Part shown: positions 28,026 through 32,821 of the stretch, one piece after another
How the letters are laid out: every line of letters begins with the position of its first letter
How positions within the stretch are numbered: position 1 is the first letter of the stretch
NCBI RefSeq assembly: GCF_030177755.1
Contig: NZ_CP126539.1
Coordinates: 1,202,001 to 1,266,000, forward strand
DNA length: 64,000 nt
Direction: 5' to 3'
Origin: Devosia sp. RR2S18
GTDB taxonomy: Bacteria > Pseudomonadota > Alphaproteobacteria > Rhizobiales > Devosiaceae
Program-made: the position numbers and the translations under genes
Notes under the pieces: model-generated
What the model was told of the DNA's origin: nothing
Databases searched by the model: none
What the model saw: only the letters and a program-made list of their open reading frames with translations

Positions 28026-29231
<1,206 letters not shown>

Positions 29232-29269: not shown

Positions 29270-29408
29270 AACGATAACCCAAAAGACTGACCCTTGGAGA
29301 CGCGGCATCCACGACGCTGCCGCAGCGAGGTCGCCGGTACTATCCAACGGGTCGAGGCGCTGCACAATTGCTCGGGCGCGAGAAGCTGCCATGCAACTAC
29401 ATCAAGGC

Positions 29409-29603
29409 AAAAAAAGAGGCTCCAACCGAAGTTGGAGCCTAATGATAGGGCCGAAGCCAAATCGCAGTAATGGCCCCGCGCAAGGGAGGAGGATATGCGC
29501 CGGACCGGGTGGACCCAAGCCGAGGGAGGAGGATACGGCTTGAACCCGGGTGTCGGGCAACGCAGGTCCGAGGGAGGAGGATACGGACGGCGTCGCAGCG
29601 ACG
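29409..29603 (-). ncRNA. Anti-Shine-Dalgarno (cuckoo/alpha-r14-type) sRNA, unit 1
   Basis: Predicted transcript of about 195 nt from the promoter at 29610-29664 to a terminator with stem GGCTCCAAC-TTCG-GTTGGAGCC and T7 (29439-29409). It contains three stem-loops, each showing CCTCCTCCC in the loop: stems GTCCG/CGGAC, CAAGCCG/CGGCTTG and GCGCA/TGCGC, with the same loop TATCCTCCTCCCT. CCTCCTCCC is complementary to Shine-Dalgarno sequences and marks the cuckoo sRNA family of Hyphomicrobiales and Rhodobacter (CcsR). Those are usually described with two such hairpins; three are seen here. Likely a translational regulator; targets unknown. Confidence 0.85.
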
Positions 29604-29609
29604 GGTTGA

Positions 29610-29664
29610 GATATATAATTTGACCGGATGGTCAGCAATGCGTCCGGTGACATGTCAGCCATGC
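29610..29664 (-). promoter_or_regulatory. Promoter and upstream motif of sRNA unit 1
   Basis: Minus strand: motif GCATGGCTGACAT (29664-29652), 13 bp, TTGCTG (29638-29633), 17 bp, TATATC (29615-29610). The same layout and spacing recur at the other two units. Confidence 0.75.
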
Positions 29665-29733
29665 GCCATCCACAGCGACAATCTGTCCATTTAGCCCGTA
29701 ATGCGCCAGCAGCAGCCGAGTTCCTGCGGATGC

Positions 29734-29925
29734 AAAAAAAAAAGCCCTGTCCGAAGACAGGGCTTGATGACTGGGCCGAAGCCAAATCGAAAGTATGGCA
29801 GAGAGCAAGGGAGGAGGAGTATGCGCTCTGCCGGTGAACCGGGATCGAGGGAGGAGGATACGATCCAAGTTCGGTGTCGCGATACGGGGTCCGAGGGAGG
29901 AGGAGTTCGGAGCGCGCCTCAGCGA
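29734..29925 (-). ncRNA. Anti-Shine-Dalgarno (cuckoo/alpha-r14-type) sRNA, unit 2
   Basis: Predicted transcript of about 190 nt ending in AGCCCTGTC-TTCG-GACAGGGCT followed by ten T residues (29764-29734). Three stem-loops carry the anti-SD core: stems TCCGA/TCGGA, GGATCG/CGATCC and AGAGC-CA/TGCTCT, with CTCCTCCTCCC, TATCCTCCTCCCT and CTCCTCCTCCC in the loops. The stem sequences differ from unit 1 while keeping complementarity, that is, compensatory change, which supports RNA function. The segment just before the terminator (GATTTGGCTTCGGCCC) is nearly identical to unit 1. Confidence 0.87.
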
Positions 29926-29931
29926 CAGGTA

Positions 29932-29986
29932 TGAATATGGACTCCATGGCTCCATCCAGCAATCCGCCTGGCCGTATGCCAGCCAT
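29932..29986 (-). promoter_or_regulatory. Promoter and upstream motif of sRNA unit 2
   Basis: Minus strand: motif GCATGGCTGGCAT (29986-29974), 13 bp, TTGCTG (29960-29955), 17 bp, CATATT (29937-29932). The weaker -10 could fit a heat-shock-type sigma factor as well as the housekeeping one. Confidence 0.72.
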
Positions 29987-30008
29987 GCAAGTGACGCACG
30001 TTCATCAG

Positions 30009-30121
30009 AAAAAAACATGGCCCCGCTCGAGGGGAGAGCGGGGCCACATAGGAGGCGGAAACGAGTTCCGCTAGGAGGGAACGCAGGAGCGCAAGGGAGG
30101 AGGAGAAGCGCTCACTGTGCT
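30009..30121 (-). ncRNA. Anti-Shine-Dalgarno (cuckoo-type) sRNA, unit 3, diverged
   Basis: Predicted transcript of about 113 nt ending in an 11-bp stem TGGCCCCGCTC/GAGCGGGGCCA, then ATG and T7 (30046-30009). Only the first stem-loop keeps the full CCTCCTCCC (stem GAGCGC/GCGCTC). The second shows CCCTCCT in a GTTCC/GGAAC hairpin, and a third CCGCCTCCT has no clear stem. It is shorter than units 1 and 2 and first in transcription order. Confidence 0.78.
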
Positions 30122-30128
30122 GATGGGG

Positions 30129-30183
30129 CATATATAAGCTGAGCTTTCGCCCATCAACCGGGCAAAGGACATGGCAGCTATGC
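30129..30183 (-). promoter_or_regulatory. Promoter and upstream motif of sRNA unit 3
   Basis: Minus strand: motif GCATAGCTGCCAT (30183-30171), 13 bp, TTGATG (30157-30152), 17 bp, TATATG (30134-30129). Confidence 0.75.
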
Positions 30184-30225: not shown

Positions 30226-30930
30226 TTATCGAGAATCGAAAGACGTGATTGCCTGGGGAAGCTGCCCGAGATGCTCGATGCGGGCGTAGCGTTGCTCCCC
30301 CACAGGCTCTTCGGCGTGCTCATAGGGCCAGGTGAGTTCGTGCGGCACATAGACCGCGAAACCACCGGCAGCAAGCGCGGGCAGTATGTCGGATTTGAGC
30401 GAATTGCCGACCATCACAGTGCGGTCGGCGCCATCGGTATGCTGCGCGAAGATGCGGGCATAGGTTGCCGGCGTCTTGTCGGAGACGATCTCGATGGCAG
30501 CGAAGAACTCGGCGAGCCCGGAAGCTGCCAACTTGCGTTCCTGATCGAAGATGTCGCCCTTGGTGACGAGGATCAGCCGGTGGGTCTCCTGCAAGTGCGA
30601 CAAAGCCTGATCCACATAGGGCAGGGTCTCCACCGGGTGGCTGAGGAGTTCACGGCCGGCGGCGAGAATCTCGGCGATGACGGTGCCGGGGACGCGGTGA
30701 TCGGTGACTTCGAGGGCGGTTTCGACCATGGACAGGGTGAAGCCCTTGATGCCAAAGCCATAAAAAGAGAGGTTGCGCGTAACGGCTGTGATAAGCTGGT
30801 CACTGAGGTCGGGTGCGTCGGTATAGTCCTTGAGCAGCGCGGTAAAGCGCTGCTCGGTGAGGCGAAAGAACTGCTCGTTCTGCCAGAGGGTGTCGTCTGC
30901 ATCGAGCGCAACCGTGGTGATGTGCGCCAT
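30226..30930 (-). CDS. HAD-family hydrolase
   Basis: 234 residues with the HAD core: nucleophile motif LDADDTLWQNE near residue 9, a helical cap (about 20-95), LILVTKGD (motif II), a Lys-containing motif III near IVSDKTPATYARIF and MVGNSLKSDILPALAAG (motif IV). Probably a small-molecule phosphatase; substrate unknown. It begins 9 bp after the lsrB stop on the same strand and likely belongs to the trxB-lsrB transcript. Confidence 0.88.
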   Translation of the reverse strand: MAHITTVALDADDTLWQNEQFFRLTEQRFTALLKDYTDAPDLSDQLITAVTRNLSFYGFGIKGFTLSMVETALEVTDHRVPGTVIAEILAAGRELLSHPVETLPYVDQALSHLQETHRLILVTKGDIFDQERKLAASGLAEFFAAIEIVSDKTPATYARIFAQHTDGADRTVMVGNSLKSDILPALAAGGFAVYVPHELTWPYEHAEEPVGEQRYARIEHLGQLPQAITSFDSR

Positions 30931-30939
30931 CGCAGGAGC

Positions 30940-31833
30940 CTAGAAGCTCCACTCGCGTGCCTTGGTGACTAGATAATCACGGAAGACGCCGACGCGCTTG
31001 GAGCTCTTAAGAGCAGGCGGATAAACAAAGAAGGCCTCATAGGCCGGCAACTCGATCTCGGGCAGGATTTGCACGAGGGATTCGGTCTGCTCGGTCACAT
31101 AGTCAGGCAGCATGGCGATGCCGATACCGGCCTGACAGGCCTGGAGCATGCCATAGATAGCGTTGACCTTAAGGACGGCGCGGCGAGGGCTGGAGTCGCT
31201 GCGGCCCAGGCGCTCGAGAAAGTTGATGTCGCCCAGATAAGACGGGACGGGCTCGCCGAAGCTGATGACGCGGTGATCGTCCAACTGATCCACGCTGGTG
31301 GGCGTGCCATGCTCCTCGACATAAGATTTGGACGCATAGAAGTGGTTGTGGACAGTGAAGAGCTTCCGCTGGATCATCTCGGACTGGTTGGGGCGATGGA
31401 GGCGGATAGCGACATCTGCCTCGCGCATGGCGAGGTCGAGCTCGGCGTCGTTGAGGCGGATTTCCAGCTGGATCAGCGGATAGAGCTTGAGGAACTCGTC
31501 CAGACGGGCGGAGAGCCAGGTCGAGCCGATGCCCACCGTGGTGGTGACGATCAGGGGACCCGTCGGAACGTCCTGGGACTCCGACATCTGTGTTTCCACC
31601 TGCTGCAATTCCCAGTGCATGCGGTGGGCCGTGCGGAACAGCTGCTCGCCGACTTCCGTCAGCACCAGGCCGCGGGCGTGACGGATAAACAGCTTGAGGC
31701 CCAGGTCGTCCTCGAGTGCCGAGATCTGGCGGGATACGGCTGACTGGCTCATCCCCAGCTTTTCAGCGGCATGGGTGAAGCTGCCCGACTCGGCGGCGGT
31801 GTGAAAAATCCGGAGCTTGTCCCAGTCGAGCAT
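30940..31833 (-). CDS. lsrB: LysR-family regulator, LsrB/VtlR-like
   Basis: 297 residues. HTH: LDWDKLRIFHTAAESGSFTHAAEKLGMSQSAVSRQISALEDDLGLKLF; effector domain from GPLIVTTTVGIGSTWLSARLDEFLKLYPLIQLEIRL; a Cys in GMLQACQAGIGIAMLPDYV. Sequence and position next to trxB match LsrB of Sinorhizobium (redox/lipopolysaccharide regulator) and VtlR of Brucella, which activates an sRNA gene and small-protein genes. The ATG at 31833 is chosen; the longer frame to 31974 runs into trxB-antisense sequence. trxB ends 37 bp upstream on the same strand. The sRNA cluster lies about 0.8 kb downstream. Confidence 0.85.
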   Translation of the reverse strand: MLDWDKLRIFHTAAESGSFTHAAEKLGMSQSAVSRQISALEDDLGLKLFIRHARGLVLTEVGEQLFRTAHRMHWELQQVETQMSESQDVPTGPLIVTTTVGIGSTWLSARLDEFLKLYPLIQLEIRLNDAELDLAMREADVAIRLHRPNQSEMIQRKLFTVHNHFYASKSYVEEHGTPTSVDQLDDHRVISFGEPVPSYLGDINFLERLGRSDSSPRRAVLKVNAIYGMLQACQAGIGIAMLPDYVTEQTESLVQILPEIELPAYEAFFVYPPALKSSKRVGVFRDYLVTKAREWSF

Positions 31834-31870: not shown

Positions 31871-32821
31871 TTACTCCGCCGCTTCGGCGAGTTCGTGTTC
31901 TGCCAGGAAACGCTCGGCTTCGAGGGCAGCCATGCAGCCCATGCCGGCAGCGGTGATCGCCTGACGGTAGACATCGTCGGTCACGTCGCCAGCGGCAAAG
32001 ACGCCCGGCACATTGGTTTCGGTGGTGCCCGGCTTAACCTGCAGATAGCCGCCCGGCTTCATGTCGAGCTTGCCGGCGAAGATAGAGGTTGCGGGGGCAT
32101 GGCCGATGGCAACGAAAACGCCGTCGATCGGCTGCTCATAGGTGCGGCCGGTCGCCACGTCGCGCAAGGTGACGGAGTTGACCGATGGTGGCATGGCGGA
32201 GCCGCCGATATCGGCAATCTCGGTGTTCCAGCGCACTTCGATCTTGGGGTTCTTGAAGAGGCGATCCTGCAGGATTCTCTCGGCGCGGAACTCGTTGCGG
32301 CGGTGCACGAGGATCACCTTGGAAGCAAAATTGGTGAGGAACAGCGCTTCCTCGACAGCGGTGTTGCCGCCGCCGACCACCAGCACCTCCTTGTTGCGGT
32401 AGAAGAAGCCGTCGCAGGTGGCGCAGGCGGAAACACCAAAGCCCTGGAACTTCTGTTCGCTGGGCAGGCCCAGCCATTTCGCCTGCGCGCCCGTCGCGAT
32501 GATGAGGCTGTCAGCCGTATAGGTCTCGCCGCTGTCGCCAGTCAGCACGAAGGGGCGCCGATCCAGGTCCACCGAGATGATCATGTCGCTGACGATCTTG
32601 GTGCCGACATGCTCGGCCTGCGCCTTCATCTGGTCCATGAGCCAAGGGCCCTGGATCACGTCGGCAAAGCCGGGATAGTTCTCGACATCGGTGGTGATGG
32701 TCAACTGCCCGCCGGGCTGTAGACCCTGGATCATCACTGGCTCCAGCATGGCGCGCGCCGCGTAGATCGCAGCGGTATAGCCCGCAGGGCCCGACCCGAT
32801 GATGATGACTTTCGCGTGCAT
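31871..32821 (-). CDS. trxB: Thioredoxin-disulfide reductase
   Basis: Reduces thioredoxin with NADPH through FAD. 316 residues: FAD-binding IIGSGPAGYTAAIYAARA, redox CATC (Cys133 and Cys136) in SACATCDGFF, NADPH-binding VVGGGNTAVEEALFL with HRRNEFRAE, and the FAD-closing GVFAAGDVTDDVYRQAITAAGMGCMAALEAERFL. It is upstream of and probably cotranscribed with lsrB, whose relatives sense oxidative stress. Confidence 0.98.
   Translation of the reverse strand: MHAKVIIIGSGPAGYTAAIYAARAMLEPVMIQGLQPGGQLTITTDVENYPGFADVIQGPWLMDQMKAQAEHVGTKIVSDMIISVDLDRRPFVLTGDSGETYTADSLIIATGAQAKWLGLPSEQKFQGFGVSACATCDGFFYRNKEVLVVGGGNTAVEEALFLTNFASKVILVHRRNEFRAERILQDRLFKNPKIEVRWNTEIADIGGSAMPPSVNSVTLRDVATGRTYEQPIDGVFVAIGHAPATSIFAGKLDMKPGGYLQVKPGTTETNVPGVFAAGDVTDDVYRQAITAAGMGCMAALEAERFLAEHELAEAAE

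Follow-up and report, generated by a model that had tools for sequence, protein, structure and literature searches.

A predicted VtlR/LsrB-linked cassette of three anti-Shine-Dalgarno small RNAs in Devosia

Three predicted small RNAs (sRNAs), which we call U3, U2 and U1 in their order of transcription, lie in tandem on the minus strand of the 64,000-nucleotide stretch of Devosia sp. RR2S18 analysed here (the window; contig NZ_CP126539.1, positions 1,202,001 to 1,266,000), downstream of a gene for the LysR-type regulator VtlR/LsrB. We consider it likely that they form a VtlR/LsrB-controlled cassette, in which three RNAs, one AbcR-like and two alpha-r14-like, are switched on by VtlR and block ribosome sites, mainly on mRNAs for solute-binding proteins. 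VtlR, encoded just upstream, would bind a box, GCATRGCTGNCAT, before each unit and activate three separate transcripts, U3 (~116 nt), U2 (~194 nt) and U1 (~199 nt). The CUCCUCCC loops of each RNA would pair with Shine-Dalgarno regions and thereby block translation, the main targets being mRNAs for solute-binding proteins of uptake systems, and a palindrome in the U1 promoter would give that unit a probable second input. The proposal draws on the anatomy of the units, the covariation of their stems, their recurrence across the genus, the fixed position of the box and the linkage to vtlR; that VtlR is the activator, that the loops block ribosome sites and that uptake mRNAs are the target class is inferred from characterised rhizobial relatives.

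The units occupy the gap that separates a gene for an aminotransferase (28029-29231, plus strand) from one for a HAD hydrolase (30226-30930, minus strand). Seven exact copies of the anti-Shine-Dalgarno (aSD) motif CCTCCTCCC are present on the minus strand, all inside this gap and split three, three and one among U1, U2 and U3; in 100 shuffles of the window the mean count was 1.01 and the maximum 4, none of the 100 reaching seven. The first unit after the hydrolase gene, U3 (30009..30124), is predicted to be AbcR-like: it carries a single aSD motif in its 5′ hairpin loop (30095..30103), a linker GUUCCCUCC, a second hairpin and a terminator (30015..30049). U2 (29732..29925) and U1 (29407..29605) are predicted to be alpha-r14-like, each with three aSD hairpins and a UUCG-loop terminator. 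Motif search and folding place the loop motifs at 29895..29903, 29849..29857 and 29809..29817 in U2 and at 29572..29580, 29524..29532 and 29484..29492 in U1, and the predicted terminators lie at 29742..29765 and 29417..29440, respectively. Between the third hairpin and the terminator of U1 is a conserved 3′ module, GATTTGGCTTCGGCC (29449..29463), that is recognizable in the alignment and is repeated in U2 (29774..29788); these are the only exact copies in the genome, with two further places matching at one mismatch. The initial annotation of this DNA had described three minus-strand units in a stretch free of protein genes, with motifs in hairpin loops, and both the motif count and the folds confirm that description.

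All three units fold better than their shuffled counterparts, with z values of -5.21 (U1), -6.44 (U2) and -8.35 (U3). The folds of U1 and U2 present three hairpins with the motif in each loop, followed by a small hairpin and the terminator, and U3 folds into one motif hairpin, a second hairpin and the terminator. Homologues from the genus (40 for U1, 42 for U2 and 43 for U3) were aligned and consensus structures derived with RNAalifold; near-identical sequences were removed before the covariation analysis (61 to 43 for U3, 67 to 43 for U2 and 69 to 42 for U1), and the alignments omit L125 from the U2 set and L111 and L133 from the U1 set. Standard pairs fill 96.2% (U1), 96.5% (U2) and 95.4% (U3) of the cells of these structures, and two-sided changes occur at 27 of 44, 26 of 40 and 10 of 18 pairs, respectively. 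None of 500 shuffles reached the paired-cell, double-change or covariation values of any unit; the number of further pair types in U3 was matched by 17 of 500. Structures slid along the alignment gave at most 56.9% paired cells, a comparison tilted towards the consensus structures because they came from the same alignments. These data bear out the earlier suggestion that the stems differ in sequence yet keep pairing, as selection on RNA structure would have it: the paired stems are retained in relatives, the opposite of being lost. Across the genus the loops of U1 and U2 are invariant or nearly so and the stems vary, as has been described for alpha-r14 RNAs, and U3 contains stretches invariant in all 43 sequences, the linker GTTCCCTCC (30074..30082) among them. 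Minus-strand open reading frames (ORFs) cross the units, but a protein-coding reading was rejected because the conservation is of pairing. As a separate observation, the loop stretch CTCTCCCCTCGAG of the U3 terminator is nearly invariant in the genus, beyond what a terminator needs, and is possibly a further pairing site.

The regulator gene vtlR/lsrB (30940..31833, minus strand) is the likely source of activation. Its product matches residues 19-314 of 314 of PDB entry 9hh1, deposited as a LysR-family regulator, with an E value of 1.9e-108; we infer from published cryo-EM work and the four cysteines of the entry that 9hh1 is LsrB of Agrobacterium tumefaciens. The gene adjoins a trxB-type pyridine-nucleotide disulphide oxidoreductase gene (31871..32821, minus strand), and the trxB-vtlR pairing has been described as conserved (PMC7486931, PMC11975290). 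Together, the LysR type, the trxB neighbour and the full-length match identify the protein as VtlR/LsrB, and its best matches are from Devosia species, at up to 93% identity. To follow the locus through the genus we used a triple pattern, three exact CTCCTCCC at hairpin spacing, which is found in 68 of 75 genomes, mostly twice. The 71 stretches compared, including the window, comprise all 68 of these genomes, a second place in one of them (G006) and two vtlR genomes that have no triple. In all 67 stretches holding both features, which had been cut to span vtlR where its place was known, vtlR lies upstream of the triple on the same strand, with 313 to 3094 bases (median 1386) between the end of the vtlR match and the first triple; the other four could not be scored for position (L117, a 3742-base contig; L133, which has no vtlR; L139 and L140, which have no triple). 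In 49 of the 71 stretches the HAD-hydrolase gene separates vtlR from the first motif.

Each unit is preceded at a fixed place by a VtlR/LsrB-type box: GCATAGCTGCCATG before U3 (30170..30183), GCATGGCTGGCATA before U2 (29975..29988) and GCATGGCTGACATG before U1 (29651..29664), all on the minus strand. The VtlR box of Agrobacterium and Brucella is given as GCAT-N3-TG-N3-T (PMC7486931), and the LsrB site in the NfeR1 promoter as TGCA-N6-GCAT (PMC10746234). All three window boxes fit the former, and that of U2, with its preceding T, also fits the latter exactly. A pattern written from the three sites, GCATRGCTGNCATR, has no other exact match in the 3,965,430-base genome (reversed control, 1). The boxes span roughly 60 to 47 nt before each predicted start, -59 to -47 in U1, where the start was predicted by eye; in this spacing the window units resemble Sinorhizobium meliloti abcR1, whose box is reported at -61 to -49 (PMC8844928). 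For the genus, a box matrix was trained on 136 strict sites from the same 71 stretches. The best box falls 74-88 nt before the first CTCCTCCC in 199 of 205 aSD groups, the other six being dropped from the promoter comparison, and most low-scoring boxes at this spacing are variants such as TGCATAGCTATTATA. Scores of at least 10 occur at 193 of 689,258 positions on both strands of the stretches, 17 of them outside aSD-group sites. Other genera of the same family also have boxes ahead of their units (L167-L171, L245-L247 and L251-L255). Among 18 loci of four other families, no box with a score of at least 4 was found in 8 of 8 loci of f44, 3 of 3 of f27 and 4 of 5 of f15; boxes are present in both loci of f43, at -111 and -115, and in one of f15, at -91. 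A search with one mismatch allowed was rejected as a means of defining further VtlR targets, being too unspecific.

The three separate boxes also bear on whether the units are made as separate transcripts. The units are tandem and on the same strand, and the CcsR1 model (RF02791) reaches its best score, 28.0 bits (cut-off 65.3), at U1, so one could picture a single VtlR-responsive precursor cut by RNase E, as in the CcsR1-4 cluster of Rhodobacter sphaeroides. However, a box, promoter-like elements and a strong terminator belong to each unit separately here. In published descriptions the CcsR cluster follows ccaF1 and an RpoHI/RpoHII promoter; at the window locus there is no co-transcription arrangement behind ccaF1 (DUF1127), the upstream gene being the HAD hydrolase. 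Because of that hydrolase gene and the terminator of each unit, CcsR-type processing was rejected, and a common precursor appears highly improbable. The initial annotation had assigned a promoter and a strong terminator to every unit. Terminators are indeed predicted in all three; a scan of the units for Escherichia coli-type sigma-70 promoters found none, and the promoters are instead represented by alphaproteobacterial-type elements (TTGCTG/TTGATG with TATATA/CATATT), which were read by eye and recur at the same place in homologues.

One promoter differs from the others. Between the -35 and -10 regions of U1 lies a palindrome, TGACC-N4-GGTCA (29621..29634), which occurs once in the window and is a candidate second operator. 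It is present in 60 of 69 U1 units of the genus and in none of 67 U2 or 63 U3 units; the 63 groups labelled U3 include two terminator-less single-motif groups (L071 at 1418 and L127 at 1925) that were removed from the alignment, and the sole triple of L127 was assigned to U1 from its place although it is of U2 type. The pattern is most simply read as a second regulator acting on U1, which probably answers a second signal.

The recurrence of the locus speaks to how the cassette arose. The annotation had read the tandem units as a recent expansion of an anti-Shine-Dalgarno sRNA whose third copy is decaying, with broad action on ribosome sites or titration of a regulator. The units are indeed alike and tandem, triples recur in the homologous Devosia loci, and two stretches hold a third triple; the third unit, however, is not degenerate. 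The order single-triple-triple, scored with exact 8-mers, is kept in 53 of the 71 stretches, and a covariance model of U3 built from 43 sequences (R1) matches 67 of the 71 sources, 43 of which built it, at an E value of 1e-14 or better. It gave no match in L109, L126, L133 and L139, the last of these being a contig edge, and the U3 loop is slightly different in L072, L099, L123 and L124. The 2.0-Mb genome G097 keeps U3 beside vtlR (L140, 81-204), and no triples or doubles were found there; because its contig stops 80 bases beyond U3, the loss of U2 and U1 is likely rather than proved. With its invariant stretches, and standing closer to the AbcR/SuhB clan by position, anatomy and a bridging homologue described below, U3 is, judged by sequence conservation, not a relic and not decaying. 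Expansion followed by decay is therefore very unlikely, and the vtlR-linked cassette of one single-motif and two triple units remains our preferred reading.

Of the 67 stretches with vtlR and a triple, 62 carry a pair of triples, three carry a single one, and the remaining two (L113 from G080 and L114 from G015) carry a third, in the order 1-3-3-3; in these, the box of one of the three triples is only weak. An extra triple unit in G006 (L133, contig 1) lies apart from the main cluster, in a stretch that has no vtlR. Seven of the 75 genomes gave no triple (G032, G086, G087, G088, G089, G096 and G097); five of them also lack a vtlR match, and missing sequence may explain these. Across the wider order, 63 of the 297 genomes sampled, from 20 of 122 genera, carry the triple pattern, with the genus of the window among them. 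Six genomes of one genus (g99 of family f10; G251, G274, G293, G313, G329 and G360) each show seven triple matches that overlap, which implies nine CTCCTCCC in a row within 325-338 bases. No longer array is among the matches listed.

We next consider what the units are. At curated cut-offs Rfam recognizes nothing in the window, and permissive scans return sub-threshold ar14 and CcsR1 matches together with other weak families, mostly at terminators. The sub-threshold matches bear out the kinship with alpha-r14, cuckoo and CcsR RNAs that had been proposed for the units. The accompanying claim that known relatives have two loops and that the triple form is new does not hold: published alpha-r14 RNAs already have three hairpins that each carry CCUCCUCCC (PMC10746234), S. 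meliloti families with three and with four of these hairpins have been known since 2011, and the two-loop description applies to the R. sphaeroides RNA (both PMC3927594, section 2.7). In their folds and covariation U1 and U2 have the three hairpins with unpaired CCUCCUCCC that characterize alpha-r14, and U3 has one; the LsrB-type promoter site is present as a sequence match before all three units and in homologues. The third motif, which the Rfam model places in the loop of the terminator hairpin, is not found there, the terminators of U1 and U2 being of UUCG type. We read U1 and U2 as a probable longer alpha-r14 variant whose terminator carries no motif, outside the curated family.

For U3 the comparison is with AbcR. 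S. meliloti AbcR1 and AbcR2 carry CUCCUCCC in the 5′ loop (aSD1) and UUCCCCUC between the first two stem-loops (aSD2) (PMC8844928); at these places U3 has CUCCUCCUCCC and the linker GUUCCCUCC. A genome of another family (G058) has a tandem pair of ar15 (AbcR) genes at the same place as the window units (127 and 119 bits), whose boxes read GCATAACTGGCAT and GCATAGCAGGCAT in G058; location beside lsrB/vtlR is thus shared by the window, by the cluster in 67 of 67 stretches and by this pair. R1 scores the G058 genes at 22.7 and 19.1 bits; as a plain window terminator already reaches 17.4 bits, this direct comparison does not discriminate. In 61 genomes searched with the ar15 family (RF02345) there was no clear match in the genus: the cut-off of 40 bits was reached in none of 37 genus genomes, and weak matches fell at U3 in G005, G008 and G010. 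A bridge is offered by another genus of the same family (G400, locus L251). There, after vtlR, an R1 match of 42.5 bits overlaps a match to suhB, of the same clan as ar15 (CL00108), and the next unit is an ar14 match of 67.1 bits, over the cut-off, with its third motif in the terminator loop. The same stretch (L251, 185-532) also shows a weak match to the cspA thermoregulator, at 28 bits against a cut-off of 78. U3 looks AbcR/SuhB-clan-like by position, anatomy and this one bridging homologue. Because of the G400 bridge, the G058 pair and the AbcR-like motif places, we describe U3 as AbcR-like and U2 and U1 as alpha-r14-like.

NfeR1, the founder of alpha-r14, is activated by LsrB and silences mRNAs of transporter components through three redundant aSD loops (PMC10746234), and AbcR1/2 likewise target transport mRNAs (PMC8844928). 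We therefore looked at ORFs of at least 100 amino acids behind GGGAGGAG-N4-11-ATG in the genome of the window and in G021, with AAGGAGG-N4-9-ATG as control (30 of its 76 sites were used). One site in the window's genome, U2 itself, was left out, and sites with shorter ORFs were excluded (9 of 20 in the window's genome, 4 of 11 in G021 and 14 of 30 for the control), leaving 11 of 20 and 7 of 11 sites with qualifying ORFs. Solute-binding proteins account for 9 of these 18 ORFs (five in the window's genome and four in G021), and one more is an ABC permease; behind AAGGAGG they account for 2 of 16, and one more is a transport subunit (TctB). The link from motif to gene class is suggestive. It bears on a different possibility, that up to seven aSD arms act as a general damper of translation, slowing initiation on many mRNAs under stress with no defined target set. 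The loops are complementary to strong Shine-Dalgarno sequences and are invariant or nearly so over variable stems, which would suit such a role; yet GGGAGGAG seldom precedes ATG in the window's genome (21 sites; reversed control, 8), and ORFs that follow it frequently encode solute-binding proteins, like the described NfeR1 and AbcR targets, although the numbers are small. A general damper is unlikely on these grounds, and control of a defined set of uptake mRNAs by the VtlR-linked cassette is the reading we carry forward.

Several results weigh against that reading. Box scores of at least 10 in 176 of the 205 aSD groups are partly circular, as the matrix came from the same loci, and allowing one mismatch raises the genome-wide matches of the box pattern to 37 (reversed control, 15), so that other VtlR targets are possible. 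Two loci of the same family with vtlR and motifs (L248 and L249) have no box with a score of at least 4. The ar14 (RF02344) scores in the window, 35.7, 32.5 and 31.7 bits, miss the cut-off of 58.8, and for this reason the units are not filed as curated ar14 members. The suhB match in G400 passes narrowly (41.9 bits, cut-off 41), and the bridge is a single locus, the only one over any cut-off among 11 loci of the family scanned. The enrichment of solute-binding proteins comes from a small test, with a one-sided Fisher p of 0.023, or 0.046 when L196, whose start is doubtful, is left out, and binding-protein genes may simply have strong ribosome sites.

The regulator itself departs from its best-known relative. 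The conserved cysteines C144 and C273 have been discussed as a redox pair of Agrobacterium LsrB (PMC11975290); in the VtlR of the genus, the window included, valine replaces C144 in 69 of 69 homologues covering the position and C273 in 68 of 68. Only one cysteine is common in these homologues (query position 250; 57 of 69), and it aligns with C236, which is not conserved. Given valine at both positions, a peroxide response through a C144/C273-type pair is unlikely in these proteins, and the expectation of the initial annotation that the RNAs would respond to oxidative stress is correspondingly weakened. A broader proposal, which we regard as possible rather than probable, is that the set of genes under direct VtlR control in Devosia has contracted to, or is centred on, the adjacent cassette, with an AbcR-like and two longer alpha-r14-like RNAs providing seven blocking arms of a single uptake switch; VtlR, having no redox cysteines, would sense something other than peroxide through that pair, and U1 would be separately gated via TGACC-N4-GGTCA.

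The hairpin type, its multiplicity and the LsrB link are already in print for rhizobia (PMC10746234, PMC3927594). Among the literature matches listed, none treats Devosia together with VtlR, LsrB, AbcR or anti-Shine-Dalgarno sRNAs; PMC9456111 names Devosia and LsrB once each. Beyond the known relatives are the U1-only palindrome and a genus-wide VtlR that has neither C144 nor C273. Rfam cut-offs seem to miss a Devosiaceae branch, because R1 matches 123 of 136 family genomes at an E value of 0.001 or better, although the weaker matches may be cross-hits to U1/U2-type units (R1 scores U1 and U2 of the window at 25.9 and 33.2 bits). The cassette brings together AbcR and NfeR1/alpha-r14, sRNA families that are usually considered separately, and their shared regulator in one compact unit of a soil genus. 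It offers a clean system in which to ask why one seed should occur three times in a single RNA and how inputs are shared out among sRNA paralogues.

Compared with known systems, U1 and U2 share with alpha-r14 (RF02344; founder NfeR1 of S. meliloti) the three CCUCCUCCC hairpins on variable, covarying stems, the LsrB-type site upstream and a likely action on solute-binding-protein mRNAs. They differ in length, at ~199 and ~194 nt predicted against 115 nt (PMC8844928) and 123 nt (PMC10746234) given for NfeR1, which is reported to be Hfq-independent (PMC10746234). Whereas the ar14 model has its third motif in the terminator loop, U1 and U2 have three motif hairpins, the conserved module and a separate terminator; they also fall short of the Rfam cut-off and are neighbours of vtlR, unlike S. 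meliloti nfeR1 and abcR1, which are ~31 kb apart. With AbcR1/AbcR2 (alpha-r15, RF02345; clan CL00108 with suhB/MmgR), U3 shares its place after vtlR, the box and a similar spacing, as well as a CUCCUCCC in the 5′ loop, a CU-rich aSD2-like linker, a second hairpin, a terminator and a length of ~116 nt; it differs in having GUUCCCUCC rather than UUCCCCUC as aSD2 and in usually being present in one copy at the locus. CcsR1-4 of R. sphaeroides are likewise tandem CCUCCUCCC RNAs, but they have two stem-loops (PMC3927594) and are processed from a ccaF1-led RpoH transcript, an organisation that the window locus does not share. The cuckoo RNAs (the RFMSmelA075/SmelA099 grouping) resemble the window units in their variable number of CCUCCUCCC-loop hairpin modules and their several copies per genome (PMC3927594); what sets the Devosia units apart is that they are linked to vtlR and joined with an AbcR-like gene.

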